In this document: positions 3,961 through 63,440 of the stretch, piece by piece
Numbering within the stretch: position 1 is the stretch's first letter
Layout of the letters: the number at the start of each line of letters is the position of its first letter
NCBI GenBank assembly: GCA_964036195.1
Contig: OZ038456.1
Coordinates: 2,294,001 to 2,358,000, forward strand
Source of the DNA: Sphaerolaimus hirsutus
Taxonomy: Eukaryota; Nematoda; Chromadorea; Monhysterida; Sphaerolaimidae
DNA: 64,000 bases
Direction: 5' to 3'
The notes under the pieces: generated by a model
Database searches by the model: none
Told to the model about the DNA's origin: nothing
What the model saw: the letters and a program-made list of their open reading frames with translations, nothing else
Translations under genes and position numbers: made by a program

Positions 3961-3965
3961 AAGTG

Positions 3966-4473
3966 AGGAGTTTGATTCCGAACCGAAACCCGTTATCTGC
4001 ACGTTTTTGGGTTTTTTGAAAATCGCATTTGAAACTTTGACATTGGTCCGCGCGGGCATGCTTCAAGTGACAACGCTTGCCCAAAACTTTTTGAAAAGTT
4101 CATGAATTTCTCTACATTTTCCATATTGACAACCCTCTGGCCGGCATATGTACCTAGAGTTATGGTGATTTGTTTGACGTCACTTCAGCATAAATGCATG
4201 CAGATAACGAGTTTCGGGTGCAAAAAATGATAGTTTTTTTTGTAGATAACGGGTTTCGAGTGCAACTCACCTATTTTGGGCTGCAGATAACGGGTTTCGG
4301 ATGCAAAATTGCATTTTTTTCAAAAAACAATATCTCTGTCTGTATCTCGGGAACGGTATGAGATCTTGAGGTTATTTTTTTATCACGAAGAAATATATAT
4401 ATATACGTCAGATCCGCACTTAACTCAATTTTTTTCACTTTTGCACTTAACGGGTTACGGAATCAAACGCCTC
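3966..4473. mobile_element. Left-arm-only inverted-repeat element (GATTCCGAA-type)
   Basis: The ends are AGGAGTTTGATTCCGAA and, reversed, GAGGCGTTTGATTCCGTAA. AAGTG lies on both sides (3961-3965 and 4474-4478). The right arm has the empty site (…ACAATAAGTGCTCCTC… in reverse). Inside are repeated GATAACGGGTTTCGGGTGCA units and a segment related to the element at 8811-9671. Confidence 0.7.
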
Positions 4474-4596
4474 AAGTGCTTCTCAAAAGATATAAAAAGT
4501 TATAAATTTACATTGGAGTTCCCGATCAGTTAAACCAAAAAATTCAGCCAAAATAATTTGTCAATTTCCCCTGTCGCCGGCGCCCTTTGTCACCTT

Positions 4597-7500
4597 CGCT
4601 GTAACTCCCCGCGGCTCCATTGCCAATCACCGAAATCTCCGAAAACTCAGGCGGGCAACAACGATCTGAGACCCCGCCGCCCCGCTTGAATGTGGTCACC
4701 GCGCTGGCACGAGCTGCAGGTGGGGGTCGATAATGTAATCTACCGTATTACCTCGAAATACCCCCCGGGGGTGATTGTTTCAGAGTGAGAATTTTGAGAG
4801 AAAAACGTGAAAAATGCAACAATAACCACCATTTATAAGTTTTTACAGCCTTATATAAGGATGTAGATGGTATAAACAATGTTCAAACGTAACACAGTAA
4901 GTGTTTTGAACATCTGTTATGCATTTCCCGGACCACAAATTCATAGTGCCGATTTTGAGGGGGGGGTATTTCGAGGGAGGGGGGTATTTCGAGGAAATAC
5001 GGTAGCTAATTGACCCCATTGGTGGCCCACACACTAGTTGACACGTGTGTGTGTGTCAACTGATCATCTGTGTCAACTCAGATTTCGGCTTCACGTGTCC
5101 GGAGCGATCTCTAAATGCACATGCGGCAATGTTGCAAAACAATTATTATGGGAAGTGCATCGGAAGATCGCTGTGCACACGTGAAGCCAAAAGCTGAGTT
5201 GACACACACTAGTTGACACACTTGTATCAATTGGTGCCAGTCCCAGGCCCTGTAAAATGTCAAATGTCATGCGAAGTGTGAAAAGTCATGGAAAACGCCC
5301 TGCAAAATGGCAACCGAGTTGCCATTTTGCCGGGCATTGTCCATGACTTTTGACACTTTGCATGACATTTGACATTTGACAGGGCATTTTCCAGGGCACA
5401 GGACTGGCCCCTAGTGTGGGCCCCCAATCAGTCAACACAAATCCAAGTAACCGAACCAGTCCCCTTGCAGGCAGCGCGGCTAGCGTGTGCGCCGTGGCGC
5501 TGGCGCACGAGCCGGAAGAAATCCGCGATCGAAAACGTCTCGAATGTGCGAGACTGCGCGCGCTGGACCCCCCCTCGAGCGCGGCGGGCACCCCCGAGGG
5601 GGTGGACAACGACGATCTGCTATTGAAGGTGGCCAAGGAACCATTGGTTTGTCGACTGCGGCGATTTTGCCACCGCAAGCAATGACGTAGGCTCGCTTGG
5701 CAATGGCATCTAACCCACTTGGCATGTAGATCCGTTGCGGGAGTCTCATGGGGGAGGACTGTTCAGCTATCAATCTATCCTGATGCTACTATCACCTGAG
5801 CCACCCCCCAAATCGCTCAACTATCTATCTACTATCTTTGAGGAAGAAACTTTGAGCGATTTTCCCCCAATTTTTACTCAAAATCGCTAAATTTTCCTCC
5901 ATTTTGTCAATTTTGCCATATACATCATAGGTAGGTGTATATTTTACTCCAGCGAGCCCTCCAGAATAATTTCAGCTATCTATCCATCCAGTGGAGGGTT
6001 TTGCTATCTACCAAGCCCCCGCGAAGGCCAAAACCTTGGAAACCCCTGAGCCCTGATCCATTGTCTACATGCCAAACGAGTTTACATGCCAGCAGGCACA
6101 GGCCCTTAGGCGAGGCAAAATGTCTTCACTATGACACTGCAAGTCTGCGTGAGGACACTTCGACACTTCACCGCGCATCACACACCCATTTTTATAGTGT
6201 ACATTGATTAGCCGTGACGTTCACTGCAGTTGCACGTGAGCCCACTTTAATTATCACTGCAGATTTACGTGAACATGGGCGGCAAAAACTACACGATCCT
6301 GAAAAGGCACATCCCTAGATTCATTTTTGACAAGGATTCGAAGGCTACAAAAGTGAAACCCGCGACGCCAATGGAAACGAACGTTAAAGAGCCTCAAAAC
6401 TCGCCAGTGAAAACGGACACGAACGACAACGACTTGTTATTTATCGACGACCTGGCGCCGTGTTTCAGCGCCACGCCGGCCAGGTGCCAATCCCATACCC
6501 TGTAAAGTGTACAGTAAAGTGTAAAATGTCATGTAAAATGTCATGCAAAGTGTCAATGACAAATGTAAAATAAAGTGTCAATTATCACGCAATGTTCAGT
6601 AACAAAAATTTTTCTTTTCCGTTTTTATTGACATTTTACATGACATTTCACACTTTACTTGACATTTTCCAGTGTCTCGGACTGCCTCCAGGCGGCACTG
6701 CGACAACAAACAGTCGGAAGTGTTGCTCGGCCTCGCCAACGACACGTCGCAGCGTCTGCTGCCGCCGCAGGAGATGCAGCGATTGCAGCCGCGCGGCCGA
6801 GCGCCCAGCCGCAGTCGACCGCAGGCACAGAGGGACGTGTTCGCCAGATTCGTGTGGTGTGTTCAACGTAGGTGTGAAACACCGTTTTTTCAATGACTTT
6901 GTTTTTAAAATAAAAACAACGTTTAAAAACAGCTAAAGCAACTTTTAAAAACACCGATCATCAATAGAGTTAGAGCAGTGCTGCAGCCGCCTCTACATGC
7001 TAGTGCAAGGTGTGCATCTGGTAGCTCAGTCGGTAAGAGCATTCACGCGTGAGGTGAAGATCCCTGGTTCGATCCCCGGCCTGGTTCAAAACATTTTGCA
7101 CCTAGCCTTCTGGCTGGTAAATACGGCTCTCCCAACTATAGTTAGATCGACAAAAAAAACATCAGAAAAAACTCAAACCACCATCCAAGATCCATTTCCC
7201 ACTTTTTTATCCAACCCATCCTACCCTGTAAATATTATCTACCTGTGCAGGTCATCTCACAACGAGCGAGTGCTGCTGTGCGACCACTACCACGAATGCG
7301 AGCATCGATATTACTTCGCCAGGCACGCGACCACGTTTGATGCACTTCTGGACTACTACAGGTGCCACTACTAGAGCCTGTAAAATGCCATGTGAAATGT
7401 AAAATGTCATGCAAAGTGTCAAGAGTCGTGTAAAATGGCCTGTAACATCGCAACTAGGCTTTACATGACTTTTGACACTGCATGACATTTGACTTTTTCT

Positions 7501-10500
7501 GGGTACGGGGGTGCCCCCAGGTGCCACTCCCAGGTTCTATAAAATGTCCAGCAAAATGTCAAATTTTTTTATATTTTTTTTTAACTAGTAGTTTGCCATT
7601 TTACAGGGCATTTTGTCTTTTGACGCTTTGCATGACATTTTACATTTTACTAGGTCTGGGACTGCGCCCAGGTGCCACTCCCAGGTTCTATAAAATGTCC
7701 AGTAAAATGTCAAATTTTAATTTATTTTTTACTGGTAATTTGGCATTTTACAGGGCATTTGTCTCTTGACACTTTGCATGACATTTTACATTCTACTGGG
7801 TCTGGAATTTGACATTTTACTATGCCCACAGGCAATTTGAAACATTGCCAAAATTCAAATTCAACATTTGGCGCAGGACTGGCCAACTGCACCGGCCTCT
7901 GGAACTGTGCAGGAAGCGTTTCGTGGAGGAAATGCGCCACTGGGGCATACGGGCGGAATTGTGCAAATACTGTAGCAAGTTGGTGACCCTGCAAATTGAT
8001 TTGTGTCTAACGGAAATACACGGCAAATATTTAGAGTATACTCGACGTACATGATACTCTGTCGTCGCACTGATTTATGTCTCGTGTTGGAAGCGTGCCA
8101 ATGATTGTTAAGTCATGCGATTTCCGTAAAAAGATGAAAAAATTCATCGATGTGAATATGTTAATGAATAACATTATAACAACCATCAATTTTGTCATCT
8201 TTTTATGAAACTCGCAAGCGCTAACCATAGTGGGCACACTTCCAGCGGGAACCACGCGTGCAGGGTGTAAAGTAACCGGAGTATACAATAAATATTATAG
8301 GGTGAAATTTTTCACCGATAGTTGTTAGAGTCTGATCCTAGCTTGTGTAATTTGCTCTTCTTCTGTAAACTTCCTCAATGTACAAAAAGAAGGGGTGAAA
8401 AAATATTGTTGTTTTGGCCACGGCAAACCAAGGAATGCTCAAAACCCAAGACTAGTCATGTAAAAGCGCTTGGCGCTAGCGCCAAAGCAAAAATCACAAA
8501 GTTTTCAGTGGCGCCATTGGCGCTTAGCGCCAAGGGTTAGAAAAGCGCCATGGCGCTTTGCGCCAAAGAGTTGGGGTTTTTTACATCACTAATTTCCATA
8601 AAACACGCACCCCCCCACAGGTCAAAGAGCTCATCAGACTCAGACGAGACTAGCGACGCGGCAGAAACTGAGGACGGGGCCGCGCCGAACCAAAAAAACG
8701 GGCCGCAGGCTCGACCGGGCAGTGCTAGTGAACAGGAAGCAGGGGATGTTGCACTCACCATGTTTGATAGTGTTGGTTTGTGGGAAATTAGCTGAATGCA
8801 CGCAGGAATTGTGGCATCTAGTTCCGAATGTCGGTATCTCCATCATTTTAGGTTTTTCCAAAATTGCATTTGAAAATTCAAAGTTGGCCCGAGCGGGCAA
8901 CTTTAAAGTGACAAGTCTTGCCCAAGACTTTTTGAAAAGCTTATGGAATTGTCTACATTTTCCATATTTTAAACCCTGCGGCCGGCGTATATAGCTAGAG
9001 TTATGATGATTTGATTGATAGCATGTCAGCAGATTCAGTGGAGATACCCTGTTTCGAGTGATTTTTTTGAAAAAAATCACTCGAAACAGGGTATCTCCAC
9101 TTAGTCGATGGGATCAACAGGCCCGGTTGTGCTGCCGTTCTGCTGGCCCATGGCCCCACTTGAGAGCAAATTTCTTACCCAGAGCAGTGGAGATACCCTG
9201 TTTCGGACAAAGATTTTTTGGAGATACCCAGTTTCCAACAAAGATTTTTTTGGAGATACCCTGTTTCGGATGATTTTTTTCAAAAACTGGTTTGGAATTC
9301 TATACCGTAATTCGGATGATTTTTTCTGTTTTGTATGGGAATTTGGACTGTTTGCGCCAAATCTATACCGTAATTCGGATGATTTTTTCCGTTGGTGGAG
9401 ATACCCTGTTTCGAGTGAAATTTTTGGTGGCTCTTTTTGGAGATACCCTGTTTCGAGTGAATTTTTTCCAATTTGAGGGTGGAGATACCCTGTTTCGGAT
9501 GATTTTTTTTGTTTTTTTCTAAAAATCGGCATATATATATCTCGGGAACGGTATAAGATATTGAAAAAATTCTTTTGCTATCATGAAGAAATAAGTGCAC
9601 TTATACCAGATCCGCACTTAACTCATTTTTTTACACTTTGGTCTTTACCGACATTCGGAACTAGATGCCTCAATTATAGTGATAATTTAAAATGTGGTGA
9701 ATGAGCATTGACATTTTGCGCTCATGAAAACAATAGTATGGGGGCCTCCAATTGAACGGAATTCGCCAATACAATCCTCGTCGCCGTGCTAATCCCCCCT
9801 GAAATACATGACTGGCGGGTCTACATATACTACAGTTACTTTACACTAGTGATGGAATGGCGCCATGGCGCCATTGGCGCCCTTTTTCTGTGGCGCCCTT
9901 GGCGCCTGGCGTCCACTTTCTGAAAGGCGCCATGGCGCCCTTTTTCCGTGGCGCCCTGCTTTAAAAGGGCGCCAAAATGGCACCAGCAGGGTTTCAAGGT
10001 GAGCGCTGCGAAAATGATAAAAAATAAAAAGCGCGTCCGTGGATAATCGAAATTCGCTGGAAAAATGCACGTGGAGCCAGGCCAGTGGATTGAAAACTTT
10101 TTGTCGAATGGTTTTCCAGACACTTCTGCTGGATCAGAAGCTGAGAATGATGGGCCGTGGAACCTGCCAAATCAACGGATTCAAATCATTTTAATTCCGT
10201 TTTCGTCCACTTTAAAAAAACACCCGTTGGATCACTCTATTTGAGATGAATGCATTGTTCTGTGAAATGACATTTTTCATTGCGTTTGAATTGAAATTAT
10301 GTGTGAGTATGATTTTCTGCAAAAGTTTTGTTGCTAGTTTCGTTTTTGTTGATTACATCCTAGAGAACATTTATAAAGAAGTGTATGTGTGCAATACTGT
10401 GTTGGAGAACCATTTTTAGCACACGCATGGTATCATACACACTTATTTATCCTGGCGCCCTTGGCGCCTGGCGCCTTAAGTTTCAAATGGCGCCATGGCG

Positions 10501-13245
10501 CCCTTGGCGCTTGGCGCCCTCTTTCCGTGGCGCCCTTGGCGCCTGGCGCCCAGTTTCCGAATGGCGCCATGGCGCCCTTTTTCTGTGGCGCCCTTGGCGC
10601 TTGGCGCCCAGTTCCCGAATGGCGCCATTGGCGCCTGGCGCTTTTCCATCACTACTTTACACCCTGCACGCGTGGTTCCCGCTGGAAGCGTGCCAACGAT
10701 TTTTTACGCATGCGATTTTCATACAAAGTTAAAAAAAATCATCTTCGTTAACGCTATACGTTGACTTTTTCACAACAATCATTTTTTGATCTTTAATACA
10801 AAAATCGCATGCTTTATCGTCATTGGCACGCTTCCAACGTGAGACATAAATCAGTGCGAGGGCAGAGTATCATGTACGCCGAGTATACCTAGGGGGTTTA
10901 CATGACTACAGGCACAGCGTCAATATTATGTTGAAAGAGTGCCAAAACACAAAATTATAAAAATAGAGGCGAGAACATTCAAAGCATTCAAATTTTCTTA
11001 AACTGTCCAATGAAAAGTGTGTGAATAAACTGGTGAAAAATAGAAGGGCACCTCCAATAGAATGGAAGGTAAAAAGCCGACAAAAACAGAGAATAGCACT
11101 CTTCTAAATATTAAAAAATACTGTAATTATGCAGGTTTGGCTGTGCGGCAACACGAGGAGAAAAATATGGCTCACATTGGAGGATCCAGCGTCTTCCTCA
11201 ACAGCTAGAATATATTCATTAGTATCAATTGCTTTTGTGATTGTGTCAGTACTCGCAATGATTATAGCTTCGTTGCCGAGTTGCCAGGTGAGTGCCACAA
11301 AATGAGTGTTCAAATAGATAATATCTTTAAAAATTTCACTACCACAGGTTTACGACCCTATAGAGGGCGAGATGGTACCGCTGTTCTTCTTTGATCTCAT
11401 CGAGAAGGTTACTTTCCAAATTTTTAAAATCAATCAACATCCAGGGGACAGTCCCAGACCCTGTAAAGTGTGAAATGTCATGTAAAATGTCAATCAAAAC
11501 AGAAAATAAAAGATTTTATTGCTGAACTTTGCATGGCATTTGATACCTTACTTTACCTTGTCATGAACATTGACACTTTGCATGACACTTGACACTTCAC
11601 TGGGTCTGGGATTGGCACCAGGAGTTTTTCAATGGCCAAATAAATCCCCATCCCCCCCCCGCAGATCTGCATCGCCTGGTTCACAATGGATTTGGTGTTC
11701 AAATTCATCATAGCCGCGGACAGATGCGACTTTCTGCGAGAACCAATGAACATAGTAGATGGGCTATCAGTGATACCGTTCTACCTGGAATGGATAGTCA
11801 GCATCACCGGGTGCCAGTCCCAGACCCTGTAAAATGCCCTGCAAAATGTCAAATGTCATGCAAGGTGTCAAAAGTCATGTAAAATACCTGCAAAATGGCA
11901 TTTTACATGACTTTTGACACTTTCCATGACATTTTACATTTTACAGGGCATTTTACAGGGTCTGGGACTGCCCCCTGGTTGACTAGTAAAGCGCTGGGAA
12001 GGGTTCAGGCAGCCTTGTTGGTGCTGCGATTACTCAGGATTCTGAGAGTTATGCGACTGTTCAAATTGGCTAGATACAGGTAGGTATTTAAGGGCCATGA
12101 CTAGAGTCAGATTTAAATGTCAACATAGGGTTTCTTCTGAATTTAGCTTATTCTTTTTGTTATCGACAATTTTTACAGTCCCCTCGGCACTCGTTACTGA
12201 TGGTTAAAAACTATAAAAGGGTATGAAAATTAGCGATTTTGAGTGAAAATAAGGGGAAAAACTCTCAAAAATTGCTCCAGACAAATAGCTAGTCGATTTT
12301 TTTTTGGGGGGGGGGGGGATTCGAGGGAATTAGACAAATATTCTGCCTCTGAAGATCGCTGCACGATGCCAATTGCCAACCTTACAAAAAAGTCATTCAC
12401 AGCGGCGGTTTGGCGTCGCTGGCGCGCACACTACGATATTCATACAAGGAAATCAGCCTATTATTCACCTTCCTGGCAATCACCATAATCCTGTACTCGA
12501 CCACGGTGTACTACCTAGAAAAGGAGGAGCAGGTGCCAGTCCCAGACCCTGTAAAATGTCATTCAAAGTGTCAAAAGTCATGAAAAATGCCCTGCAAAAT
12601 GGCAACTCGCTTGACACAACATGACTTTTGACACTTGACATTTTACAGGGTCTGGGATCGCCCCCAGGATACCAAATTCACCAGCATTCCAGCCACGTTC
12701 TGGTGGTGCATCATCACCATGACAACGGTGGGCTATGGGGACACGGTGCCAAAAACTACAGGTGCGTCAAGTGAGAGTTTCAGCCAGTGTGGCTGCGATT
12801 TGGTTCTAGTAGGGGGTCTCGTGTTTAGATCTGACCCCTGCGGGGGTTCAGATAATGTGCAAAAAGGCATGAAAATTAACGAGTTTGGAATTGATAAAAA
12901 AGCGTCAAAAATTGAGATATGAGATAAGGTAGAGTTTAAACGGGATTCGTTCCGTTTGGGATCCGTTCAAAAATACTGAAACCACAAAATTCAAACACCA
13001 ACGTCAGCAACGAAAAAAATTCCAAATCCCAATCCCGTTAAAAAATACCACCAAAAATTCAAACATAACTTTCCCCAGCGGGCAAGCTGGTGGCCACCCT
13101 GACCGCCCTGTCCGGTGTCATAGTTCTCGCCTTCCCCATCACGCTCATCGTGGAGAATTTCAACTATCAATATCGAGATGGCTGCATGCCGCCGCCGCCA
13201 AAGAAGGGCAAACGACGCAGAATTACCGTTGTCAGGATGTTTTGA
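4597..13245 (+). CDS. Voltage-gated potassium (Kv) channel alpha subunit, left copy
   Basis: Pore-forming K+ channel subunit of the plasma membrane. Exons: about 4597-4719, 5471-5646, 6263-6483, 6692-6856, 7251-7361, 7877-8002, 8621-8771, 11135-11287, 11348-11407, 11665-11810, 11987-12079, 12403-12532, 12668-12761, 13079-13245; all phases match, giving about 597 codons after exon 1. In order: T1 domain starting [10 protein letters not shown], split by a roughly 130-residue polar insert, with HRYYF, LHRP and an H-x5-C-x20-C zinc-type pattern as in Kv2-Kv4; acidic linker; S1 (exon 8), S2-S3 (9-10), S4 [16 protein letters not shown] (11), S5 (12), pore TTVGYGD (13), S6 (14). The C-terminus is short and basic. 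S6 reads FPIT where most Kv channels have PVP. Uncertain points are the start codon (not found), the exon 1 start, the exon 7 donor, and the exon 11 start (an AG at 11986 or a TG at 11977 both keep frame). Subfamily not assigned. Confidence 0.9.
4741..5004. mobile_element. Tc1/mariner-like MITE, CCGTATT…AATACGG (left arm only)
   Basis: The element runs 4743-5002 between two TA dinucleotides, with ends CCGTATTACCTCGAAATACC and its near mirror. The core is C-rich, then G-rich (GAGGGGGGGGTATTTCGAG). It lies in Kv intron 1. In the right arm the same place reads TACCGTA (28792-28798), consistent with excision leaving three terminal bases. Confidence 0.8.
5025..5230. mobile_element. Palindromic GTTGACAC element
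   Basis: A long inverted repeat from CCCACACACTAGTTGACAC to GTTGACACACTTGT, containing the mirrored CAGATTTCGGCTTCACGTG and CACGTGAAGCC arms. It is present in both arms (mirror about 28570-28775). Relatives are at 28799-28975 and 39508-39742. It lies in Kv intron 1. Confidence 0.65.
5232..5414. mobile_element. Introner-type hairpin element, family I, in Kv intron 1
   Basis: It starts GGTGCCAGTCCCAGGCCCTG and ends CACAGGACTGGCCCCTAG. The core is a hairpin of AAATGTCATGCAAAGTG-like units followed by their reverse complement. It lies inside a longer intron (4720-5470) rather than filling it. The mirror copy is 28381-28569. Confidence 0.75.
5758..6060. mobile_element. hAT-like CAGGGG-family remnant (AGCTATCTATC repeats)
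   Basis: CAGCTATCTATC, AAATCGCTCAACTATC and TTTTGCTATCTACC motifs and the end ACCTTGGAAACCCCTGAG match the elements at 15741-16221 and 42892-43249. Kv intron 2, present in both arms. Confidence 0.5.
6484..6691 (+). mobile_element. Introner: element equals Kv intron 3
   Basis: The whole 208-bp intron is one hairpin element. It starts at the donor, GTGCCAATCCCATACCCTG, and ends at the acceptor, GTCTCGGACTGCCTCCAG. Both flanks are CAG (exon CCAG before, CCAG at the end), as expected if 3 bases of target were duplicated. Splicing joins AG to G, giving an in-frame arginine in the T1 insert. The right-arm copy is 26855-27062, the same length. Confidence 0.85.
7015..7086 (+). repeat. tRNA-like sequence (probably SINE head or tRNA pseudogene)
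   Basis: Box A-like TAGCTCAGTCGG, a perfect anticodon stem TTCAC/GTGAA, and box B-like GGTTCGATCCC are present. The acceptor stem pairs poorly, the T stem has a mismatch, and position 33 is C rather than T, so a working tRNA is unlikely. It lies in Kv intron 4. The mirror copy at 26444-26515 is the same length. Confidence 0.6.
7362..7520 (+). mobile_element. Introner 1 of 3 in Kv intron 5
   Basis: It begins at the exon 5 donor, GTGCCACTACTAGAGCC, and ends CGGGGGTGCCCCCAG. The interior is a hairpin of ATGTCATGCAAAGTGTC units. It is directly followed by the next element. The right-arm copy, 26011-26169, has the same 159-bp length. Confidence 0.8.
7521..7671 (+). mobile_element. Introner 2 of 3 in Kv intron 5
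   Basis: Starts GTGCCACTCCCAGGTTC and ends GGGACTGCGCCCAG, 151 bp, abutting elements on both sides. It has its own GT at the start and AG at the end, so it could splice alone. The right-arm copy is 25860-26010. Confidence 0.8.
7672..7831 (+). mobile_element. Introner 3 of 3 in Kv intron 5
   Basis: Starts GTGCCACTCCCAGGTTC like the previous one and ends CTATGCCCACAG. The acceptor of exon 6 is 45 bp further on (7876), so the last piece of this intron is not element sequence. The right-arm copy is about 25699-25859. Confidence 0.75.
8036..8286. mobile_element. MITE, GTATAC…GTATAC (ACATGATACTCTG type), Kv intron 6
   Basis: It starts GTATACTCGACGTACATG and ends AACCGGAGTATAC. Inner arms GTTGGAAGCGTGCCAATGAT and CACACTTCCAGCGGGAACC are partly mirrored. 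Copies are 9825-10888 (interrupted), about 27607-27862 and the interrupted right-arm counterpart 22649-25494. Confidence 0.7.
8453..8591. mobile_element. hAT-like MITE, TAGTGATG/GCGCCATGGCGC family, Kv intron 6
   Basis: It runs from TAGTCATGTAAAAGCGC to TTTTTTACATCACTA with mirrored GCGCCAATGGCGC units between. The right-arm counterpart is about 22341-22476. Target duplications are not clear in this copy. Confidence 0.65.
8811..9671. mobile_element. Left-arm-only inverted-repeat element (GGAGATACCCTGTTTCG units)
   Basis: The 25-bp ends match: GGCATCTAGTTCCGAATG at the start and CATTCGGAACTAGATGCC at the end. AATT is repeated at both flanks (8807-8810, 9672-9675). The right arm has an uninterrupted site (about 22110-22130). 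Inside, GGAGATACCCTGTTTCG followed by a T run occurs about seven times, some inverted. It lies in Kv intron 7. Confidence 0.75.
9825..10888. mobile_element. GTATAC MITE, left arm only, split by a hAT element
   Basis: It is the same family as 8036-8286 and ends at CGCCGAGTATAC. The right arm reads CTACATAACTAGGGGG at this place (in reverse), so it is an insertion. A hAT-like element (9847-10654) sits inside it. Confidence 0.65.
9847..10654. mobile_element. hAT-like element, TAGTGATGG…CCATCACTA, 8-bp duplication
   Basis: CTTTACAC is repeated exactly on both sides (9839-9846 and 10655-10662), the duplication size made by hAT transposases. The ends consist of GGCGCCATGGCGCC units. The middle, about 9990-10440, is low-copy and has no transposase frame I recognise, so the element is non-autonomous. 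Confidence 0.85.
11445..11621. mobile_element. Introner-type element inside Kv intron 9
   Basis: Starts GGGGACAGTCCCAGACCCTG and ends GTCTGGGATTGGCACCAG. The host intron (11408-11664) has its own donor and acceptor, so the element is inside the intron rather than equal to it. The mirror copy is 21170-21346. Confidence 0.75.
11811..11977 (+). mobile_element. Introner: element forms Kv intron 10
   Basis: It starts at the donor, GTGCCAGTCCCAGACCC, and ends GTCTGGGACTGCCCCCTG. The next AG is 9 bases beyond the element (ACTAG, ending 11986) and gives ITG-KALGRVQ. Splicing at the element end (TG, 11977) would give [13 protein letters not shown], also in frame. I cannot tell which is used. The mirror intron is 20807-20982. 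Confidence 0.75.
12533..12667 (+). mobile_element. Introner: element equals Kv intron 12
   Basis: The 135-bp intron starts GTGCCAGTCCCAGACCCTG right after exon KEEQ and ends CTGGGATCGCCCCCAG right before exon [11 protein letters not shown] flanks both sides. The joined sequence fits the S5-pore linker of Kv channels without gain or loss. The right-arm copy, 20120-20254, is also 135 bp. Confidence 0.88.
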
Positions 13246-13264
13246 TTCGTTTTGGATAAGTAAT

Positions 13265-13507
13265 TGTGCTCGGCGGACCGGAGAGTATGCGTCCAAAATT
13301 ACTTATGTCTTAGATGATAAGGTCGGGGCAGGATACTTATGTACACTGTTTCACAAAGTAATTTTTCAAAGGCGGAGTCTAGCACGACCAACATACGTTT
13401 TGTGCCCGAAACGATTTTTTTCTTGTTTTCAACGATTTTCAATTTTTGATGATGACGTAATGGACTGTTTCGTTCAGAGAAGCGCATAGCTTGGGTCCGC
13501 TGAGTAC
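13265..13507. mobile_element. MITE of the GTATAC/AAGTATGCGCCC family, 3' of Kv gene
   Basis: It begins GCTCGGCGGACCGGAGAGTATGCG just after the Kv stop codon and ends near GGTCCGCTGAGTAC. TGATGACGTAATGGACTG and ATTACTTATGTCTTAGATG match the copies at 2844-3081 and 34190-34425. It may lie in the 3' UTR. The mirror copy is about 19268-19510. Confidence 0.55.
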
Positions 13508-13510
13508 AAG

Positions 13511-14240
13511 TGAACCCGATATAACATAATTTCGTTTGTTTGAAGAATTCCTTTAATGTTTTGTACAAAATATAGTTTTATCGCTAGCTAATCGATTCCA
13601 CTGGTTTTGCTATCAATTTTTTTTGTACATTCGACGATGTTGTTTCACGAGAAATGCTTTTCGAATAAATGCATGTCTGGATTCGAAAATATTGAATTGC
13701 GGGCCGAAAAAACGTCTTCATTTCCACTCAAAACGAAATCAACAACAGAAACCAACAAAAAAAGTTCTAACCTCGACGCAACATGATAACACAGAAAAAT
13801 CGAAAAGATTCACACATAATTCACTTTTTCGCCTTCTTGCCACCTGTGCCGCCTGGAATGAAAATTTTACGGATAAATTTGCCATTTGACAAAGAAAGTG
13901 CAGTGAGCTAAAATATTCGAAATTTGCCAAAACGAATAACCAGTATTTGCCACAGCACAAAATGTGGAAAACCTCAAAGTTTTCCCCTTCCGACAAAGTC
14001 CGAAAACAACAACTATTCCCACATTGATCCCACAGACCTTCAATCGCAACACAAAAACTCTGGACAATCCCATATCGCTGAGACAACGTCTTTAGTTCAA
14101 ATCGCCAAATTGGCAATTAGCCAAATATAGCGAGTTTGAACGCTTTTATACAAAATCGATGTCGCAACGGCAAGGAAAACATTTTTCGTTCAATTTTATT
14201 GATCCAGTCCTTGATGGACTTGTGTACAAATCGATCATTA
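13511..14240. other. Arm-shared sequence downstream of Kv, no gene recognised
   Basis: AT-rich sequence, mirrored at about 18530-19265. A 125-codon minus-strand open frame (13739-14116) is broken by indels in the other arm, so I do not call it a gene. Confidence 0.4.
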
Positions 14241-19527: not shown

Positions 19528-22500
19528 TCAAAACATCCTGACAACGGTAATTCTGCGTCGTTTGCCTTTCTTTGGCGGCGGCGGCATGCAGCCATCTCGA
19601 TATTGATAGTTGAAATTCTCCACGATGAGCGTGATGGGGAAGGCGAGAACTATGACACCGGACAGGGCGGTCAGGGTGGCCACCAGCTTGCCCGCTGGGG
19701 AAAGTTATGTTTGAATTTTTGGTGGCATTTTAAGTGTTGAATTGGGATTTGGAATTTTTTTGTTTCTGGTGTTGGTGTTTGAATTTTGTGGTTTCAGTAT
19801 TTTTGAACGGATCCCAAACGGAACGAATCCCGTTCAAACTCTACCTTATCTCAGATATCTCAATTTTTGGCAAAAATTTTGACGCTTTTTTATCAGTTAT
19901 AAACTCGTTAATTTTCATGCCTTTTTGCACATTATCTGAACCCCCGCAGGGGTCAGATCTAAACACGAGACCCCCTACTAGAACCAAATCGCAGCCACAC
20001 TGGCTGAAACTCTCACTTGACGCACCTGTAGTTTTTGGCACCGTGTCCCCATAGCCCACCGTTGTCATGGTGATGATGCACCACCAGAACGTGGCTGGAA
20101 TGCTGGTGAATTTGGTATCCTGGGGGCGATCCCAGACCCTGTAAAATGTCAAGTGTCAAAAGTCATGTTGTGTCAAACGAGTTGCCATTTTGCAAGGCAT
20201 TTTACATGACTTTTGACACTTTGAATGACATTTTACAGGGTCTGGGACTGGCACCTGCTCCTCCTTTTCTAGGTAGTACACCGTGGTTGAGTACAGGATT
20301 ATGGTGATTGCCAGGAAGGTGAATAATAGGCTGATTTCCTTGTATGAATATCGTAGTGTGCGCGCCAGCGACGCCAAACCGCCGCTAGTGAATGACTTTT
20401 TTGTAAGGTTGGCAATTGGCATCGTGCAGCGATCTTCAGAGGCAGAATATTTGTCTACTTCCCTCGAATTCCCCCCCCCCCAGAAAAAAAATCGACTAGC
20501 TATTTGTCTATCTGGAGCAATTTTTGAGAATTTTCCCCCTAATTGTCACTTAAAATCGCTAATTTTCATACCCTTTTATAGTTTTTAACCATCAGTAACG
20601 AGTGCCGAGTGGGGTTTTAAAATTGTCGATAACAAAAAGAATAAGCTAAATTCAGAAGAAACCCTATGTTGACATTTAAATCTGGACTCTAGTCATGGCC
20701 CTTAAATACCTACCTGTATCTAGCCAATTTGAACAGTCTCATAACTCTCAGAATCCTGAGTAAACGCAGCACCAACAAGGCTGCCTGAACCCTTCCCAGC
20801 GCTTTACTAGTCAACCAGGGGGCAGTCCCAGACCCTGTAAAATGCCCTGTAAAATGTAAAATGTCATGGAAAGTGTCAAAAGTCATGTAAAATGCCATTT
20901 TGCAGGTATTTTACATGACTTTTGACACCTTGCATGACATTTGACATTTTACAGAGCATTTTACAGGGTCTGAGACTGGCACCCGGTGATGCTGACTATC
21001 CATTCCAGGTAGAACGGTATCACTGATAGCCCGTCTACTATGTTCATTGGTTCTCGCAGAAAGTCGCATCTGTCCGCGGCTATGATGAATTTGAACACCA
21101 AATCCATTGTGAACCAGGCGATGCAGATCTGCGGGGGGGATGGGGATTTATTTGGCCATTGAAAAACTCCTGGTGCCAATCCCAGACCCAGTGAAGTGTC
21201 AAGTGTCATGCAAAGTGTCAATGTTCATGACAAGGTAAAGTAAGGTATCAAATGCCATGCAAAGTTCAGCAATAAAATCTTTTATTTTCTGTTTTGATTG
21301 ACATTTTACATGACATTTCACACTTTACAGGGTCTGGGACTGTCCCCTGGATGTTGATTGATTTTAAAAATTTGGAAAGTAACCTTCTCGATGAGATCAA
21401 AGAAGAAAAGCGGTACCATCTCGCCCTCAATTGGGTCGTAAACCTATGGTAGTGAAATTGTTTTTAGATTTTATCTATTTGAACACTCATTTTGTGGCAC
21501 TCACCTGGCAACTCGGCAATGAAGCTATAATCATTGCCAGTACTGAGACAATCACAAAGGCAATTGATACTAATGAATATATTCTAGCTGTTGAGGAAGA
21601 CGCTGGATCCTCCAATGTGAGCCATATTTTTCTCCTCGTATTGCCGCACAGCCAAACCTGCATAATTACAGTATTTTTTAATATTTGGAAGAGTGCTATT
21701 CTCTGTTTTTGTCGGCTTTTTACCTTCCATTCTATTGGAGGTGCCCTTCTATTTTTCACCAGTTTATTCACACACTTTTCATTGGACAATTTTAACAATG
21801 CAACTTGAGCAATATTTAATATCATAGCTACAATTTTAAATGTTACCTAGGTATATCTATTTGAATGCTTTGGATGTTCTCGCCTCTATTTTTATAATTT
21901 TGTGTTTTGGCACTCTTACAACATAATGTTGACCCTGTGCCTGGAGTCATGTAAACCCCCTAGTTATGTAGACCCGCCAGTCATGTAATTTAGGGGGGAT
22001 TAGCACGGCGACGGGGATTGTATTGGCGACTGCCGTTCAATTGGAGGCAGCCATTCTATTGTTTTCAGGAGCGCAAAATATCAATGCTCATTCACCACAT
22101 TTTATCATATCACTATAATTCCTGCGTGCATTCAGCTAATTTCCCACAAACCAACACTATCAAACATGGTGAGTGCAACATCCCCTGCTTCCTGTTCACT
22201 AGCACTGCCCGGCCGAGCCTGCGGCCCGTTTTTTTGGTTCGGCGCGGCCCCGTCCTCAGTTTCTGCCGCGTCGCTCGTCTCGTCTGAGTCTGATGAGCTC
22301 TTTGACCTGTGGGGGGGGGGGTGCGTGTTTTTTGGAAATTCGTGATGTAAAAACCCCCAACTTTTTGGCGCCAAGCGCCATGGCGCTTTTCTAACCTTTG
22401 GCGCTTGGCGCCAATGGCGCCACTGAAAACTTTGCGATTTTTGATTTGGCACTAGCGCCAAGCGCTTTTACATTACTAGTCTTGGGTTTTGAGCATTCCT

Positions 22501-25500: not shown

Positions 25501-28500
25501 TATTTGCCGTGCATTTCCGTTAGACACAAATTAATCTGCAGGGTCACCAACTTGCTACAGTATTTGCACAATTCCGCCCGTATGCCCCAGTGGCGCATTT
25601 CCTCCACGAAACGCTTCCTGCACAGTTCCAGAGGCCGGTGCAGTTGGCCAGTCCTGCGCCAAATGTTGAATTTGAATTTTGGCAATGTTTCAAATTGCCT
25701 GTGGGCATAGTAAAATGTCAAATTCCAGACCCAGTAGAATGTAAAATGTCATGCAAAGTGGAGAAGAGACAAATGCCCTGTAAAATGCCAAATTACCAGT
25801 AAAAAATTAATTAAAATTTGACATTTTACTGGACATTTTATAGAACCTGGGAGTGGCACCTGGGCGCAGTCCCAGACCTAGTAAAATGTAAAATGTCATG
25901 CAAAGCGTCAAAAACAAAATGCCCTGTAAAATGGCAAACTACTAGTTAAAAAAAAAATATAAAAAAATTTGACATTTTGCTGGACATTTTATAGAACCTG
26001 GGAGTGGCACCTGGGGGCACCCCCGTACCCAGAAAAAGTCAAATGTCATGCAGTGTCAAAAGTCATGTAAAGCCTAGTTGCGATGTTACAGGCCATTTTA
26101 CACGACTCTTGACACTTTGCATGACATTTTACATTTCACATGGCATTTTACAGGCTCTAGTAGTGGCACCTGTAGTAGTCCAGAAGTGCATCAAACGTGG
26201 TGGCGTGCCTGGCGAAATAGTATCGATGCTCGCACTCGTGGTAGTGGTCGCACAGCAGCACTCGCTCGTTGTGAGATGACATGCACAGGTAGATGATATT
26301 TACAGGGGGATGGGTTGGATAAAAAAGTGGGAAATGGATCTTGGATGGTGGTTTGAGTTTTTTCTGATGTTTTTTTTTTGTCGATCTAACTATAGTTAGC
26401 GAGCCGCATTTACCAGCCAGAAGGCTAGGTGCAAAATGTTTTGAACCAGGCCGGGGATCGAACCAGGGATCTTCACCTCACGCGTGAATGCTCTTACCGA
26501 CTGAGCTACCAGATGCAAACCTTTCACTAGCATGCAGAGGCTTACCTATGTGCGGCTGCGGCACTGCTCTAACTCTATTGATGATTGGTGTTTTTAAAAG
26601 TTGCTTTAGCTGTTTTTAAACGTTGTTTTTATTTAGAAAACAAGGTCATTGAAAAAACGGTGTTTCACACCTATGTACGTTGAACACACCACACGAATCT
26701 GGCGAACACGTCCCTCTGTGCCTGCGGTCGACTGCGGCTGGGCGCTCGGCCGCGCGGCTGCAATCGCTGCATCTCCTGCGGCGGCAGCAGACGCTGCGAC
26801 GTGTCGTTGGCGAGGCCGAGCAACACTTCCGACTGTTTGTTGTCGCAGTGCCGCCTGGAGGCAGTCCGAGACACTGGAAAATGTCAAGACAAGTGTGAAA
26901 TGTCATGTAAAATGTCAATCAAAACGGAAAAGAAAATTTTTTGTTACTGAACATTGCGTGATAATTGACACTTTATTTTACATTTGTCATTGACACTTTG
27001 CATGACATTTTATATGACATTTTACACTTTACTTTACACTTTACAGAGTCTGGGACTGGCACCTGGCTGGCGTGGCGCTGAAACACGGCGCCGGGTCGTC
27101 GATAAATAACAAGTCGTTGTCGTTCGTGTCCGTTTTCACGGGCGAGTTTAGAGGCTCTTTTACGTTCGTTTCCATAGGCGTCGCGGATTTCACTTTTGCA
27201 GCCTTCGAGTCCTTGTCAAAAATGAATCTAGGGATGTGCCTTTTCAGGATCGTGTAGTTTTTGCCGCCCATGTTCACGTAAATCTGCAGTGATAATTAAA
27301 GTGGGGTCACGTGCAACTGCAGTAAACGTCACGGCTAATCAATGTACACAGTAAAAATGGCTGTGTGATGCGCGGTGAAGTGTCATAAGTGTCCTCACGC
27401 AGACTTGCAGGGTCATAGTGAAGACATTTCGCCTCGCCTACGGGCCTGTGCCTGCTGGCATGTAAACTCGTTTGGCATGTAGACAATGGATCAGGGCTCA
27501 GGGGTTTCCAAGGTTTTGGCCTTCGCGGGGGCTTGGTAGATAGCAAAACCCTCCACTGGATGGATAGATAGCTGAAATTATTCTGGAGGGCTCGCTGGAG
27601 TAAAATATATATACTCGGCGGACATGATACTCTGCCCTCGCACTGATTTATGCTTTGTGTTGGAAGCGTGCCAATGATAATTAAATAATGCGAATTCCAT
27701 AAAAAGATGAAAAAATTCATCGATGTGAAAATGTTTATGAATAACATTATAACAACAATCAATTTTGTCATATTTTTTTGAAACTCGCAAGTGTTAACAA
27801 TCGTTGGCACACTTCCAGCCGGAACCACGCGTGCAAGGTGTAAAGTAACTGGGGTATACCTATGATGTATATGGAAAAATTGACAAAATGGAGGAAAATT
27901 TAGCGATTTTGAGTAAAAATTGGGGGAAAATCGCTCAAAGTTTCTTCCTCAAAGATAGTAGATAGATAGTTGAGCGATTTGGGGGGTGGCTCAGGGGATA
28001 GTAGCCTCAGGATAGATTGATAGCTGAACAGTCCTTCCCCATGAGACTCCCGCAACGGGTCTACTATTTACATGCCAAGTGGGTTAGATGCCAAGCGAGC
28101 CTACGTCATTGCTTGCGGTGGCAAAATCGCCGCAGTCGACAAACCAATGGTTCCTTGGCCACCTTCAATAGCAGATCGTCGTTGTCCACCCCCTCGGGGG
28201 TGCCCGCCGCGCTCGAGGGGGGGTCCAGCGCGCGCAGTCTCGCACATTCGAGACGTTTTCGATCGCGGATTTCTTCCGGCTCGTGCGCCAGCGCCACGGC
28301 GCACACGCTAGCCGCGCTGCCTGCAAGGGGACTTGTTTGGTTGCCTACTTGGATTTGTGTTGACTGATTGGAGGCCCACACTAGGGGCCAGTCCTGTGCC
28401 CTGGGAAATGCCCTGTCAAATGTCATGCAAAGTGTCAAAAGTCATGGAAAATGCCCGGCAAAATGGCAACTCGGTTGCCATTTTGCAGGGCATTTTCCAT

Positions 28501-34631: not shown

Positions 34632-34992
34632 CTGGATTCCTGCGTCCACCGCAATGGCCGCCTGTCCTGGCCAACATCTTCCCTTTCTAATCAAAACTCC
34701 GGGCACAAAACTGTCCTGGGGGCAGTCCCAAACCCTGTAAAATGCCCTGTAAAATGTCAAATGTCATGCAAAGTGTCAAAAAGTCACGTAAAATGCTATG
34801 CAAAAAAGAGTTGCCATTTTGCAGGGCATTATACGTGACTTTTGACACTTTGCATGCCATTTGACATTTTACAGGGCATTTGACAGGGTCTGGGATTGAA
34901 TCCTTGTTTTGCATGCAAATATTTTACCAAATATCTCACGGCCCAATTAAATTGCAATGTTAATTTCCGAACATTTGACCCTTTCCGACTGT
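34632..34992 (-). CDS. Two candidate exons of an unknown minus-strand gene
   Basis: Exon a (34992-34928) follows an AG and ends TATTTG before GTAAAA. Exon b (34715-34632) follows CTGCCCCCAG and ends ATCCAG before GTGATT. Both junctions are phase 0, and exon b is open in that frame only. Read together they give …KLTLQFNWAVRYL-DSFVPG and on to AIAVDAGIQ. The intron between them holds an introner-type element. I recognise no domain, and neither further exons nor the gene ends were found. This could be a chance pairing; its support is the splice sites, the phase and the introner. Confidence 0.4.
34716..34905 (-). mobile_element. Introner-type hairpin element, family I
   Basis: On the minus strand it runs GATTCAATCCCAGACCCTG … GGTTTGGGACTGCCCCCAG. 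Its AG end is exactly the acceptor of the candidate exon at 34715. The other end lacks the usual GTGCC start, and the nearest donor is 22 bases upstream. Confidence 0.7.
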
Positions 34993-45714: not shown

Positions 45715-47898
45715 TTAATTATGATCACTTCTATTCAATCGAATAATGTTCGGCTTTTTCCGCATACACGGCTCCATAAACTCGGCATAGAGGTGCGCGA
45801 AGGCGAACCTTAGCGCGAGCACGTTGGGCGAGAAAATGCCCTTGTTGTATAGACCGAATTGTGGATCGATTCCGGAGTTCTGCACTTCTTCAATGCGACC
45901 TTTCCTCGATAGGACGACCGCATATCTGGGAGGAAATTTAATTACCGTATACGCTCGAATAGTCTTTTTGGGGAATTATTTGTTTTGTCAGACTTTTTTG
46001 AGGTGTGGAATTATTCAAGGGGAGGAATTATTGGTTCGACGAAGTTTTCAAGCATGTTTATATTAACTCATTTCACAAACTATGCTTGATTAACAGAATA
46101 GCATGCTTTTTTTGTTCAAAAAGGACATTTTTTTACAAATTGATCATGTGCCATAATGCGGAATTATTCAAAAGGGGGGGGGGAATTATTTATTCCTCAC
46201 TCATCTTACAGAGGAAATTATTCGAGGGGTGAATTATTCAAGGGAGAGATTATTCGAGCGAATACGGTAGAACAGAATCGGAGGCCCACATTTCCGCAAA
46301 AAAATTGGTCGTCAAGCTGAAAACGTGTGGCACCTGTGGCCATTTCTGCAAGTGAGAACAGAAGAAGTGAGAACAGAAGTAAAATGGCAAATGCGACGTG
46401 AAATGGCAAAAGCGAAGTGAATTGAGAAGTAAAATGGCAAAAGCAAGGTGAATTGAGAAGTAAAATGGCAAAAGCGAAGTGAATTGAGAAGTAAAATGTC
46501 AAAAGCGAAGAGAAATTACTTTAAATTTTATTTTTTTCTTCGCTTTTGTCAATTCACTTGCCGTTTCACTTCACTTTTGCCATTCTACTTAGCTTTTGCC
46601 ATTTTACTTAGCACTTCTCAATTTGCGGAACTGGCACCTGGTCGCATTGGGTACGGTCGACAAATAGCTCAGTTTCAGTCCGCTCAGTATATTCGACGGT
46701 CGCGTCAGCTGGGGATCCGTTTGCGAGGCGGTGATATTTTCTCGGATAAAACTACCTAGTGAACGAAAGCCTAAATACCTATCTACCGTATTTCCTCGGA
46801 ATACCCCCCCCCCCCTCCCGGGGGTGATAGTTTCAGAGTGAGAATTTTGAGGGGGGTTAAATGAGGGGGGGTATTTCGAGGAAACACGGTAGTTTTTTTT
46901 GCCTGTCAAATACCTACCCACGATTTTAACCAAGCGGTTCCCGAGTTTTAAGCATGCGCTCAGGGCTAGGGTGTCAAATTTCCGTTTTCCGCAGGAATTT
47001 TTTTTCCGTTTTCCGCACCGTTTTCCGGCCACTGAATTTTTCTTTCGTTTTCGTTTCCATTTTCCAGCTCAATTTTCCATTTTTCCGCCTCATATTCCCT
47101 TTTTCAGGCTCAACTGTCTTTTTTTCTGTTTCAGCCAAACTGATAAACACGCATGCAGCTTTTCAATTATGTGCGTTTTTCCAAATTTCCATCAAAAAAT
47201 CACAAATTTTTACTATTTCCAGCAAATTTCAACTAATTTTTTCCATTTCCAGCAAAATTTCAGCAATTTTTGCCATTTCCATGCAAATTTCATGTTTACG
47301 TCTTCCATTTTCCGGCCTTGTTTGCCGTTTTTCAGCCGCTGAAATTTTTTTGTTTCCGTTTTCCGCCAAGTGCTAAATTTTTCCATTTCCGTTTCCGTTT
47401 TCCGGCAAGTGCCAAAAAAATTTCGTTTCCGGTTTCCGTAAAAATCTCGCCCTACTCGGGGCATAAACCCCCCCCCCCCCCCGCGTCCCCAAATGGTACC
47501 CCAAATTTCAGAAATGGTGAAGCTATGGTCCAAAAGCACCCCACCTTACCGCGTAGCACAACCCATCAACTTCAATAATAAACTCTGATTCTTGCTGTTA
47601 TTGATGAACTTGTCGAGCGAATTGATAATGTTGTGCGGCTGCAGGAGGTTTGGCCGCGGCTGGCCAGGTGGCAGTTCCGAACCCATGTAAAGTGTCAAGT
47701 CAAGTGTAAAGTGTCATGTAAAGTGTCGATCAAAACAAAACAGAAAAAGATTGTTTTACTGCGATTTTTATGATAACTTACACTTTGCATCACATTTTAC
47801 AGGACACTTAACATTTTACTTTATACTTTACAGGGTTTGGGACTGCCACCAGGTGCCATCAGGTGATCAGCCAGAGGTTTCGTTAAACCCGTTGCCAT
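45715..47898 (-). CDS. Unknown conserved-looking protein, five exons, about 179 residues
   Basis: Exons in coding order: 47898-47850 (ATG start, MATGLTKPLADHLMAP), 47664-47550, 46751-46638, 46316-46266 and 45925-45715 (stop TAA). Phases fit at every junction. The protein continues QPRPNLLQPHNIINSLDKF, then LLLKLMGCAT, ITASQTDPQLTRPSNIL, FFAEMWASDSVLPYAVVL, GIDPQFGLYNKGIFSPNV and EFMEPCMRKKPNIIRLNRSD. It looks soluble and mixed helical, with no signal peptide. I recognise no family. Intron 1 (47849-47665) is a complete introner element; exact removal restores the frame but needs a 3' site after TG. The first AG downstream (exon start 47659) would break the frame with exon 1. Exon 3's acceptor (GGTAG) is weak. 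Intron 3 contains a family III element and intron 4 is almost all MITE, whose end supplies the donor GT. Confidence 0.62.
45943..46269. mobile_element. TACCGTAT MITE filling intron 4 of the minus-strand gene
   Basis: TACCGTATACGCTCGAATAG to TATTCGAGCGAATACGGTA. The intron is 45926-46265, so the MITE makes up nearly all of it. The donor, CC|GTATTCGC, is inside the MITE's terminal repeat. Confidence 0.75.
46329..46637 (-). mobile_element. Hairpin element, family III, starting at the exon 3 donor
   Basis: On the minus strand it starts exactly at the donor, GTGCCAGTTCCGCAAATTG, and ends AATGGCCACAG. The used acceptor is 12 bases later (TTTTCAG). Those extra bases begin GTGCCACAC, like the start of a second element. 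Confidence 0.75.
46785..46891. mobile_element. Short TACCGTATTT MITE
   Basis: ACCGTATTTCCTCGGAATACC to TTCGAGGAAACACGGTA, about 107 bp, in intron 2 of the minus-strand gene. Confidence 0.65.
46967..47454. mobile_element. hAT-like T-rich TAGGGTGTC element
   Basis: TAGGGTGTCAAATTTCC to AAAATCTCGCCCTA, flanked by CTCAGGGC and CTCGGGGC (7 of 8 bases). The inside repeats TTTTCCGTTTCC-like units. In intron 2 of the minus-strand gene. Confidence 0.75.
47665..47849 (-). mobile_element. Introner equal to intron 1 of the minus-strand gene
   Basis: 185 bp on the minus strand, GTGGCAGTCCCAAACCCTG to GGTTCGGAACTGCCACCTG, with perfect GTGGCAG/CTGCCAC ends and CTG on both sides (3-bp duplication). Removing the element and one CTG gives the uninterrupted frame …MAP-G-QPRPN…. 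Confidence 0.75.
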
Positions 47899-50455: not shown

Positions 50456-50499
50456 ACACTGTGAGTAAAATTACCAGCACCTGTAATTTACACATACAC

Positions 50500-50950: not shown

Positions 50951-51019
50951 AATTAAACAGTACTAATTAGTTCTTGTGGTGTATGTGTAAATTACAGGTG
51001 CTGGTAATTTTACTCCCAG

Positions 51020-62822: not shown

Positions 62823-63440
62823 GTGGCAGTTCCAAGCCGTGTAAAGTGTAAAGTAAAGTGCAGAGTTGTTGAAAGTACTGAACTTTTTTCAAAGTATAAG
62901 TAAATGTAAAGTATTTATTTTTTACGCACCCCCTGAGTACAGAAAACAGAAAATACAGAAAAGTCAAAATTTTTACTTTTACTCTTGAGTAAACATGCGT
63001 AAAATACTTTTTCCTCTAGAAAATCTAAAAGTGAGTATTTTTTAGAAATAAGCCCCAATTTCACTCAAAATCACTAATTTTCATGCCTTTTTGACAATTT
63101 TTACCTTCAAATTCATTACTTCATGTGTTTTGTGCCTATTTTCAGCAATTTTTTACCCTATTTTCCACTTTTTTCTCCTTTCTTCCCCATCTATGCCTTG
63201 AAAAGCCTATAACAAAGCCCATCTGAAATACGTTTTCTGTACTCAAGTACTTTTAAAAAGTATACATAAAGGCAAGTACAGGTAAATTTTCCAAAGTATA
63301 CGTAAATGTATTTACTCACTACTTGAGTATACATACTTTTTTAGTAAACATAAATACGTATTAACAACTATGGTAAAGTGTCAATTGTCATGCAAAGTTC
63401 AGTAATAAAATTTTTTTCTTTGTTTTGATTGACACTATAC
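62823..63440 (+). mobile_element. Introner at the GPCR exon 5 donor, split by a hAT element
   Basis: Starts exactly at the donor, GTGGCAGTTCCAAGCCGTG, as in the minus-strand gene. GTAAAGTGTCAATTGTCATGC continues after the nested element. The right end, past about 63435, is not recognisable. Confidence 0.68.
62861..63372. mobile_element. hAT-like CAGAGTTG element inside the introner, duplication GTAAAGTG
   Basis: CAGAGTTGTTGAAAGTAC to TTAACAACTATG, with GTAAAGTG exact at 62853-62860 and 63373-63380. Confidence 0.85.

Follow-up and report, generated by a model that had tools for sequence, protein, structure and literature searches.

Where do new introns come from, and how do their splice sites become canonical? 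This long-standing question is raised by a 64,000-nucleotide stretch of the nematode Sphaerolaimus hirsutus (assembly GCA_964036195.1, contig OZ038456.1, positions 2,294,001 to 2,358,000, forward strand; hereafter the window), in which introns of a voltage-gated potassium (Kv) channel gene are built from one family of hairpin elements. As we read the sequence, it is quite probable that the element is a hairpin miniature inverted-repeat transposable element (MITE) that targets CWG and acts as a spliceosomal introner, its introns running from GT to AG or from GT to TG, with the target-site duplication (TSD) serving as the 3' splice site. Within a single genome the family allows a near-paired comparison, since element, donor and hairpin stay the same in conserved genes and the 3' end is either AG or TG.

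The channel gene's joined S1-S6 peptide, entered by eye with a small number of errors in its residues, finds Kv channels at E=3e-55. The Kv region is present twice in the window, as inverted and roughly 96% identical copies (2341-16091, and copy B at 16680-30836) that flank a 200-N gap at 16480-16679. The elements of the first copy are as follows.

6484..6691, plus strand: Kv intron 3, a single introner element (from sequence, inverted arms and fold)
7362..7876, plus strand: Kv intron 5, three head-to-tail elements and a 45-nt tail (from sequence; copy B 98.8% identical)
11811..11977, plus strand: Kv intron 10, one element with CGG on its left and CTG on its right (from sequence, arms and fold)
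12533..12667, plus strand: Kv intron 12, a single element flanked CAG/CAG (from sequence, fold and Kv homology of the joined peptide)
11445..11618, minus strand: reversed element within an ordinary GT-AG intron (11408-11664), flanked by CAG at 11442-11444 and CAG at 11619-11621
5234..5411, plus strand: element upstream of the Kv exons, flanked by TTG and TAG with no clear TSD (from sequence)

The initial annotation described introns 3 and 12 as element sequence from first base to last and introns 5 and 10 as nearly so. For introns 3 and 12 this is what we find: each follows a CAG, starts with GTGCC, ends in CAG and is element sequence throughout (in intron 3 the two triplets lie at 6481-6483 and 6689-6691, and copy B is 95.7% identical). 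Their predicted RNA hairpins are far more stable than dinucleotide shuffles, with z-scores of -6.7 for intron 3 and -9.4 for intron 12 (the folded segments, to 6693 and 12669, each run two bases past the end), and removing intron 12 leaves a peptide equal in length to what we take to be the corresponding residues of Kv2.1. Intron 5 is more composite than described, with elements starting at 7362, 7521 and 7672, neighbours sharing a CAG at each junction, and the tail behind them. We place its end at 7876 because TAC TAC AG^G ACT GGC (where ^ marks a junction, here and below) yields a peptide that, by our assumption of what a T1 domain looks like, is T1-like. Within 7362-7831 the second and third tandem copies look near-identical, as if one had arisen by tandem duplication or had inserted at the CAG of a copy already present. 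A single element (11811-11974, plus CTG) makes up intron 10, with 83-nt arms that are 90% complementary and a hairpin z-score of -18.2 (segment folded to 11992), and its flanks are CGG and CTG, not the CAG on both sides that had been proposed. It could end with TG at 11977 (GT-TG) or with a TAG nine bases further, at 11986 (GT-AG), and both ends keep the frame.

To ask how far the family extends, we count its termini in the window's own 348-Mb assembly (762 contigs). There are 1,633 exact occurrences of the 17-nt donor end GTGCCAGTCCCAGACCC and none of a reversed-pattern control, which supports the suggested genome-wide introner family; a GTGGC variant of the element end occurs 86 times, and a similarity search with intron 3 gives at least 109 matches (40 of 1,660 candidates scored). 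The donor end is preceded by CAG in 744 cases and by CTG in 646, that is by CWG in 1,390/1,633 (85%). The other, right-type end GGGGCAGTCCCAGACCC occurs 2,073 times, with CAG on its right flank in 883 cases and CTG in 610 (CWG in 1,493/2,073). Over their first five bases the two termini differ at base 2 (T for G) and base 4 (C for G), and it is the T that creates the splice donor.

We then follow individual copies from end to end in a sample of 90 loci on contig C1, taken in list order, of which 50 were picked because the left triplet is CAG and 40 because it is CTG. The right end is located in 87 (all except L011, L024 and L095) and refined in 86 (L022 being lost). Among these 86 loci the left and right triplets are CAG/CAG in 38, CTG/CTG in 27, CTG/CAG in 8, CAG/CTG in 3 and other combinations in 10. 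A CWG follows the right terminal inverted repeat (TIR) in 76/86, within eight allowed offsets; because the refinement accepts CWG at any of these offsets past the TIR core, a few of the right-hand calls could be chance. Where both triplets are CWG (76 loci), the right one matches the left locus by locus, 65 against 11 (Fisher p=2e-10). Beyond the triplets, position -1 is C in 50/76 and position +1 is G in 52/76, with A and T the commonest bases at -2 and +2. This is a true 3-bp duplication of a CWG target inside a palindromic ACCWGGT, a core that the target of zebrafish Harbinger3 shares. The 3-bp duplication postulated from the Kv introns is thus real, with CWG in place of CAG alone. Element length has a median of 183.5 nt and a range of 113-432 (n=76), and copies interrupt genes as unrelated as those for CNOT9, OSCP1, cyclin-Y, an ATPase, a permease and a sugar transporter. 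Because some sampled loci are duplicated (L019/L020 and L088/L090, with look-alikes L118/L119 and L078/L080), the 86 are not fully independent; none of these is among the 23 strict frame cases described next. A paralogous empty site, sought in the tandem-repeat gene L005 and across the sampled loci, gave nothing convincing, one short self-match apart.

If the elements are removed as introns, the coding sequence on the two sides should be in phase after exact removal of the element and one TSD copy. The frame of each flank is called independently by a codon-score model trained on the Kv exons together with others taken as coding from homology or visual inspection, no locus contributing to its own training, and one third of loci in phase is the null. 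Four threshold settings were run together. At the strict setting (threshold 4, strand margin 4) all 23 loci in sense orientation are in phase, 11/11 with CAG/CAG, 9/9 with CTG/CTG and 3/3 with CTG/CAG; raising threshold and margin to 5 gives 11/11, 8/8 and 3/3. The looser settings give 11/14, 9/10 and 3/3 (threshold 3, margin 4) and 13/17, 10/13 and 3/3 (threshold 3, no margin). The strict sense passes come from 12/40 of the CTG-left loci and 11/50 of the CAG-left loci. With no requirement of phase, the coding strand is clear at 48 of 87 loci, and the element lies in sense in 39 and in antisense in 9 (p=1.5e-5). The GT end is therefore upstream in genes, as removal by the spliceosome predicts.

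A new finding is that coding exons contain CTG copies at about the same frequency as CAG copies. The initial annotation saw in the duplicated CAG a ready CAG^G junction, and this is only a partial account, fitting the CAG copies, because CTG copies are also apparently removed exactly from coding exons. Several of these exons belong to conserved proteins. Exact removal of a CTG/CTG copy from CNOT9 gives LTSLGVIGAL^VKTDEQEV, which aligns with no gap over 121 residues (E=3e-65), the residues on both sides of the junction matching a solved CNOT9 chain; the genome has one match, to the right-hand exon, the piece on the left being too short for scoring. In OSCP1 the junction of a CTG/CTG copy is DKLYDL^MTMACKYQ, and residues 7-48 fall on Pfam profile positions 48-89 with no gap at the junction (E=4e-17); the same family is matched across a CAG/CAG copy 0.8 kb away (YILEQRL^RAQN), and a search of the PDB with OSCP1 found no match. 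A sugar transporter (L107) with a CTG/CTG copy aligns from residues 12-80 to profile positions 346-414 (E=4e-18) and, over 60 residues, gaplessly to a PDB chain. Two further CTG/CTG cases are less clean: in a permease (PF00860) 87 residues align to 86 profile positions, so there is one gap somewhere along the alignment, and in ALKBH7 the PDB alignment crosses the junction with one gap about 50 residues downstream, its Pfam match being below cut-off and starting past the junction. The Pfam matches of two ATPase loci (L099, L038) are below their cut-offs, and L108, considered as PP2C-like, has no Pfam match. As a rough extrapolation from the strict passes (9/40, one contig), there would be about 145 strict-type CTG/CTG introns among the 646 exact copies, and more with the diverged ones.

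These data suggest the following scheme. A non-autonomous, hairpin-forming MITE, of the NuwaI kind within PIF/Harbinger, would insert at ACCWGGT and duplicate the central CWG, presumably mobilised by a NuwaI transposase. One of its termini would have turned, by an ancestral change of GG to GT, into GTGCC, a ready 5' splice site, while the other keeps the GGGGC form. In a gene that has the GT end upstream, the transcript would read CWG^GT...CWG^G, and by removing the element together with one copy of the TSD the spliceosome could restore the message precisely. The 3' splice site would then come from the TSD, as AG at CAG targets and TG at CTG targets, and at the latter the intronic copy may later change from T to A, giving AG. 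On balance we lean, with less assurance than for the introner itself, to the view that one family makes both GT-AG and GT-TG introns in a single animal according to the centre base of the target, with hundreds of TG-ended introns handled by the ordinary spliceosome, perhaps aided by the hairpin, and converting to AG.

At two of the eight CTG/CAG loci the exonic TSD copy indicates in which direction this change went. In cyclin-Y (AECAIITL^VYIERLL, no gap at the junction, E=2.5e-39) and in a Na,K-ATPase (AYEDL^GGLGERV, no gap at the junction, E=6e-23; the search gave no match at E 1e-25 and 38 sequences at 1e-8), the left, exonic copy is CTG and encodes a leucine common to the aligned PDB chains, and the right, intronic copy is CAG. 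Most simply, the element would have inserted at CTG, and the intronic copy would then have changed from T to A. Across the genome, CAG outweighs CTG more strongly on the right flank than on the left (883:610 and 744:646, Fisher p=0.0026), the two counts sampling partly different copies. Identity to the nearest sampled neighbour averages 80.5% for CTG/CAG (n=8) and 84.1% for CTG/CTG (n=25), averages given here with no significance test. If this reading is true, the genome holds a live record of canonical 3' splice sites arising, and a natural experiment on intron birth.

Some of our results pull the other way. Antisense loci are also found in phase, in 1/2 at the strict setting, 1/3 at threshold 3 with margin 4, 3/9 with no margin and 1/2 at threshold and margin 5, and one reversed element (L035) sits just upstream of a TMEM165/GDT1 domain (PF01169) with an open frame on both sides, which splicing that depends on GT leaves unexplained unless the exon starts elsewhere. 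In a check of cut points at 12 of the 27 CTG/CTG loci, chosen for coding evidence, an in-frame AG lies within 18 nt downstream in 6/12 and in the last 45 nt of the element in 4/12 (L087, L102, L108, L079), so that frame alone does not separate other cut points from exact removal there. CAG is favoured on the left flank too (p=0.009), and the excess of CTG-to-CAG over the converse in the 76 loci is not significant on its own (8/35 against 3/41, p=0.10). Finally, a transposase carrying these termini did not emerge: 0/30 DDE_Tnp_4 loci have the TIR pair within about 1.5 kb, with one partial single match, in a search that left Myb/SANT aside. As a separate observation, the element at L083 is reversed relative to the likely coding strand and in phase, and its donor-side end reads GC (CAG^GCAGC...CAC^CAG); it could be a GC-AG intron made from the opposite orientation.

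The alternative that survives best, which we nevertheless regard as unlikely, accepts the CTG copies as introns and has them removed by ordinary GT-AG splicing to some other AG, in the downstream exon or in the tail of the element, at the cost of a few codons lost or gained. The in-frame AGs just described are what such splicing would use, and Kv intron 10 offers a GT-AG option of this kind at 11986. It meets difficulty at the sugar transporter and at L069, L092 and the GPCR-like L088 (G-protein-coupled receptor), where neither the element's final 45 nt nor the first 37 nt beyond it contain an in-frame AG; at these four loci exact removal requires an end other than AG, or else a site farther away. 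Cuts at the downstream AGs of CNOT9 and OSCP1 would moreover remove residues that are conserved among the aligned relatives. The commonest AG in the tail, 19 nt before the junction, was tried as a cryptic site and set aside, since, with the donor placed at +0, +6 or +18 (offsets taken from the sequence), it shifts the frame in 11/12 of these CTG/CTG loci.

Marginally less likely again is the possibility that only the CAG copies are true GT-AG introners and that the CTG copies are unspliced, being mostly heterozygous loss-of-function insertions caught in the assembly. GT-TG introns are rare in known genomes and the assembly does hold duplicated, haplotype-like segments, both of which would suit this explanation. 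The sampled CTG/CTG copies are as diverged from their nearest neighbours as CAG/CAG copies (84.1% against 84.4% identity, p=0.75), which speaks against young unspliced mutants and indicates that they persist. The near-equal strict passes of the two classes, the right triplet's lean to AG, and CNOT9, with its single genome match and its solved chain matched on both sides of the junction, tell against it as well.

A third account, which we find improbable, dispenses with the GT altogether, either through an RNA hairpin that joins the ends, an idea put forward for the introners of Amoebophrya, or through precise somatic excision of the DNA. The hairpins are indeed very stable, excision by PIF/Harbinger elements is reported to be usually perfect (PMC2836001), and the few antisense copies in open frames (L035, L083) fit. 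Both forms predict no preference of orientation, hairpin introns of this sort depending on neither terminal consensus nor orientation, but the sense loci outnumber the antisense ones 39 to 9 in favour of GT upstream. That elements merely invaded pre-existing introns, as the Kv copy at 11445-11618 and the tail of intron 5 show can happen within longer introns, with the matching ends a coincidence, is very improbable given whole introns that coincide with element ends plus TSD, triplets that track each other locus by locus (p=2e-10), and flanks whose coding sequence reaches the junction and is in phase.

Returning to the window with spliceosomal removal of a CWG-targeting introner as the preferred reading, the remaining copies are the following (ends in copy B are approximate).

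20120..20254, minus strand: copy-B intron 12 element
20816..20970, minus strand: copy-B intron 10 element
21170..21343, plus strand: copy-B reverse-oriented element
25650..26170, minus strand: copy-B intron 5 array
26855..27062, minus strand: copy-B intron 3 element
34719..34886, plus strand: element with an intact GGGGC-type end after CTG, the other (right) terminus lost
47668..47849, minus strand: element with GTGGC at both ends, reading CTG^GTGGC...CCAC^CTG on the minus strand, with an in-frame join of MATGLTKPLADHLMAP to GQPRPNLLQPHNIINSLDKF
62823..62870, plus strand: element with its left end (GTGGC) preceded by CAG where a likely GPCR exon ends, the remainder broken by another repeat

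All six element features tested are present in both Kv copies, which may be either side-by-side haplotypes or a genuine inverted duplication; because the locus is duplicated in this way, the elements of the two copies are not independent insertions. The three copies outside the Kv region had been offered as signs of wide distribution, and the description of each needs amending. The candidate at 34.6-35.0 kb is an element lacking its right terminus, the copy in the GPCR gene retains its left end, and the one in the minus-strand gene (a gene assigned by reading, with no use of homology) is CAG/CAG on the plus strand only, being CTG/CTG on the strand of the likely gene.

Other features of the window are noted in passing. 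Read by eye, the Kv T1 domain appears to contain a long insertion of low conservation before HRYYFARH, across several exons (6263-7360), and a tRNA-His-like sequence, a short interspersed element or a gene, scores below the Rfam gathering threshold in a Kv intron of both copies (7014-7088 and 26442-26516). Repeats of GGAGATACCCTGTTTCG occur in both orientations at 9030-9520, some as near-perfect palindromes; a tandem repeat with units like CGTAAAATGCTTCCCGG forms two inverted blocks at 49943-51550; and a short-unit tandem array at 55436-55785 is open in several frames on both strands.

Two observations elsewhere in the assembly bear on the comparisons below. In the mitochondrial COX1 (L129, on the 14,754-base contig C762), judged against what we take to be typical COX1 residues, AGA stands for serine, AAA for lysine and TGA for tryptophan at conserved positions, with AGA used ten times and AGG never in the 445 codons counted. 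A code of this kind sets aside a tunicate, echinoderm, flatworm or vertebrate host, and with the tunicates a larvacean of the Fritillaria type, which the triplet at both intron ends had brought into consideration. A model of U2AF2 has 15 genome matches, none over cut-off, of which four form one U2AF2-like locus on C6 and the others are read as generic RRM proteins.

How does this family compare with known systems? It has a likely affinity to the NuwaI group of PHIS (PIF/Harbinger), which makes a CWG TSD, has TIRs of 12-61 bp usually starting with GGG, and is reported there from animals only (PMC4482050). The family here shares the 3-bp CWG TSD, and its right end starts GGGGCAGTCCC, whereas its left terminus starts with GTG (GTGCC), where the source says only 'usually' GGG. 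NuwaI is defined by its transposase, and the likeness we draw is one of TSD, in part of terminus, and of animal distribution. DDE_Tnp_4 has 163 genome matches; more than 100 have very similar scores, most of these with four in-frame TGAs within the matched stretch, which probably reflect an intron of the transposase gene (noted for L039-L068). Because no transposase with these termini was found, membership of NuwaI is unproved, and the element seems best described as a NuwaI-like (CWG-targeting) MITE acting as an introner. PIF/Harbinger elements prefer extended targets, of 15 bp in vertebrates (PMC2836001), and the cited part of PMC4482050 describes no intron-making role for NuwaI. In fungi, PIF/Harbinger is among the transposons found as recognisable remnants in recently gained introns, where, unlike here, the cited account mentions no CWG duplication or role in splice sites (PMC8476143).

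The predicted GT-TG ends have a parallel in Micromonas, a green alga in which introner families IE-B and IE-D (25 and 6 members, up to 6,494 nt) have GT-TG ends and reverse splicing is suggested as the means of spread (PMC3879977). In human U2 introns TG can serve as a 3' splice site, at alternative sites in 36 genes (PMC2374985); here, by contrast, TG would be the sole 3' site of many introns. The introners of Amoebophrya form hairpins with short direct repeats at their boundaries and non-canonical ends, and are described as lacking family-specific inverted repeats or a constant splice motif (PMC7789003), unlike the single family, fixed GT and strong orientation bias seen here. A further comparison is with another animal, Fritillaria borealis, whose non-canonical introns, mainly AG-AC and AG-AT, often carry the triplet YAY at both ends and are accompanied by duplicated U2AF (PMC13326754). 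A triplet at both intron ends is common to the two, and we infer that the YAY repeat would fit a TSD supplying the 3' splice site; the predicted ends here are GT-AG or GT-TG, one U2AF2-like locus was found, and the mitochondrial code differs from the tunicate one. A duplication of U2AF like that in Fritillaria, sought through the U2AF2-model matches, is neither shown nor excluded by them.

The introner literature, as far as its searched portions go, contains no description that we recognise as this family, which does not prove its absence elsewhere. A general precedent is the DNA-transposon introners surveyed by Gozashti et al. (2022), which are non-autonomous, many with TIRs and with TSDs of 3-9 bp, build their splice sites partly from element and partly from TSD, and are excised in a way that mostly keeps the length of the mRNA (PMC9860276). 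What sets the present family apart from these is that a single element with a palindromic CWG target would yield two states of the 3' splice site, AG and TG. That survey reported introners in only two animal groups, so it is useful to have an animal family whose likely affinity to a transposon group can be named.

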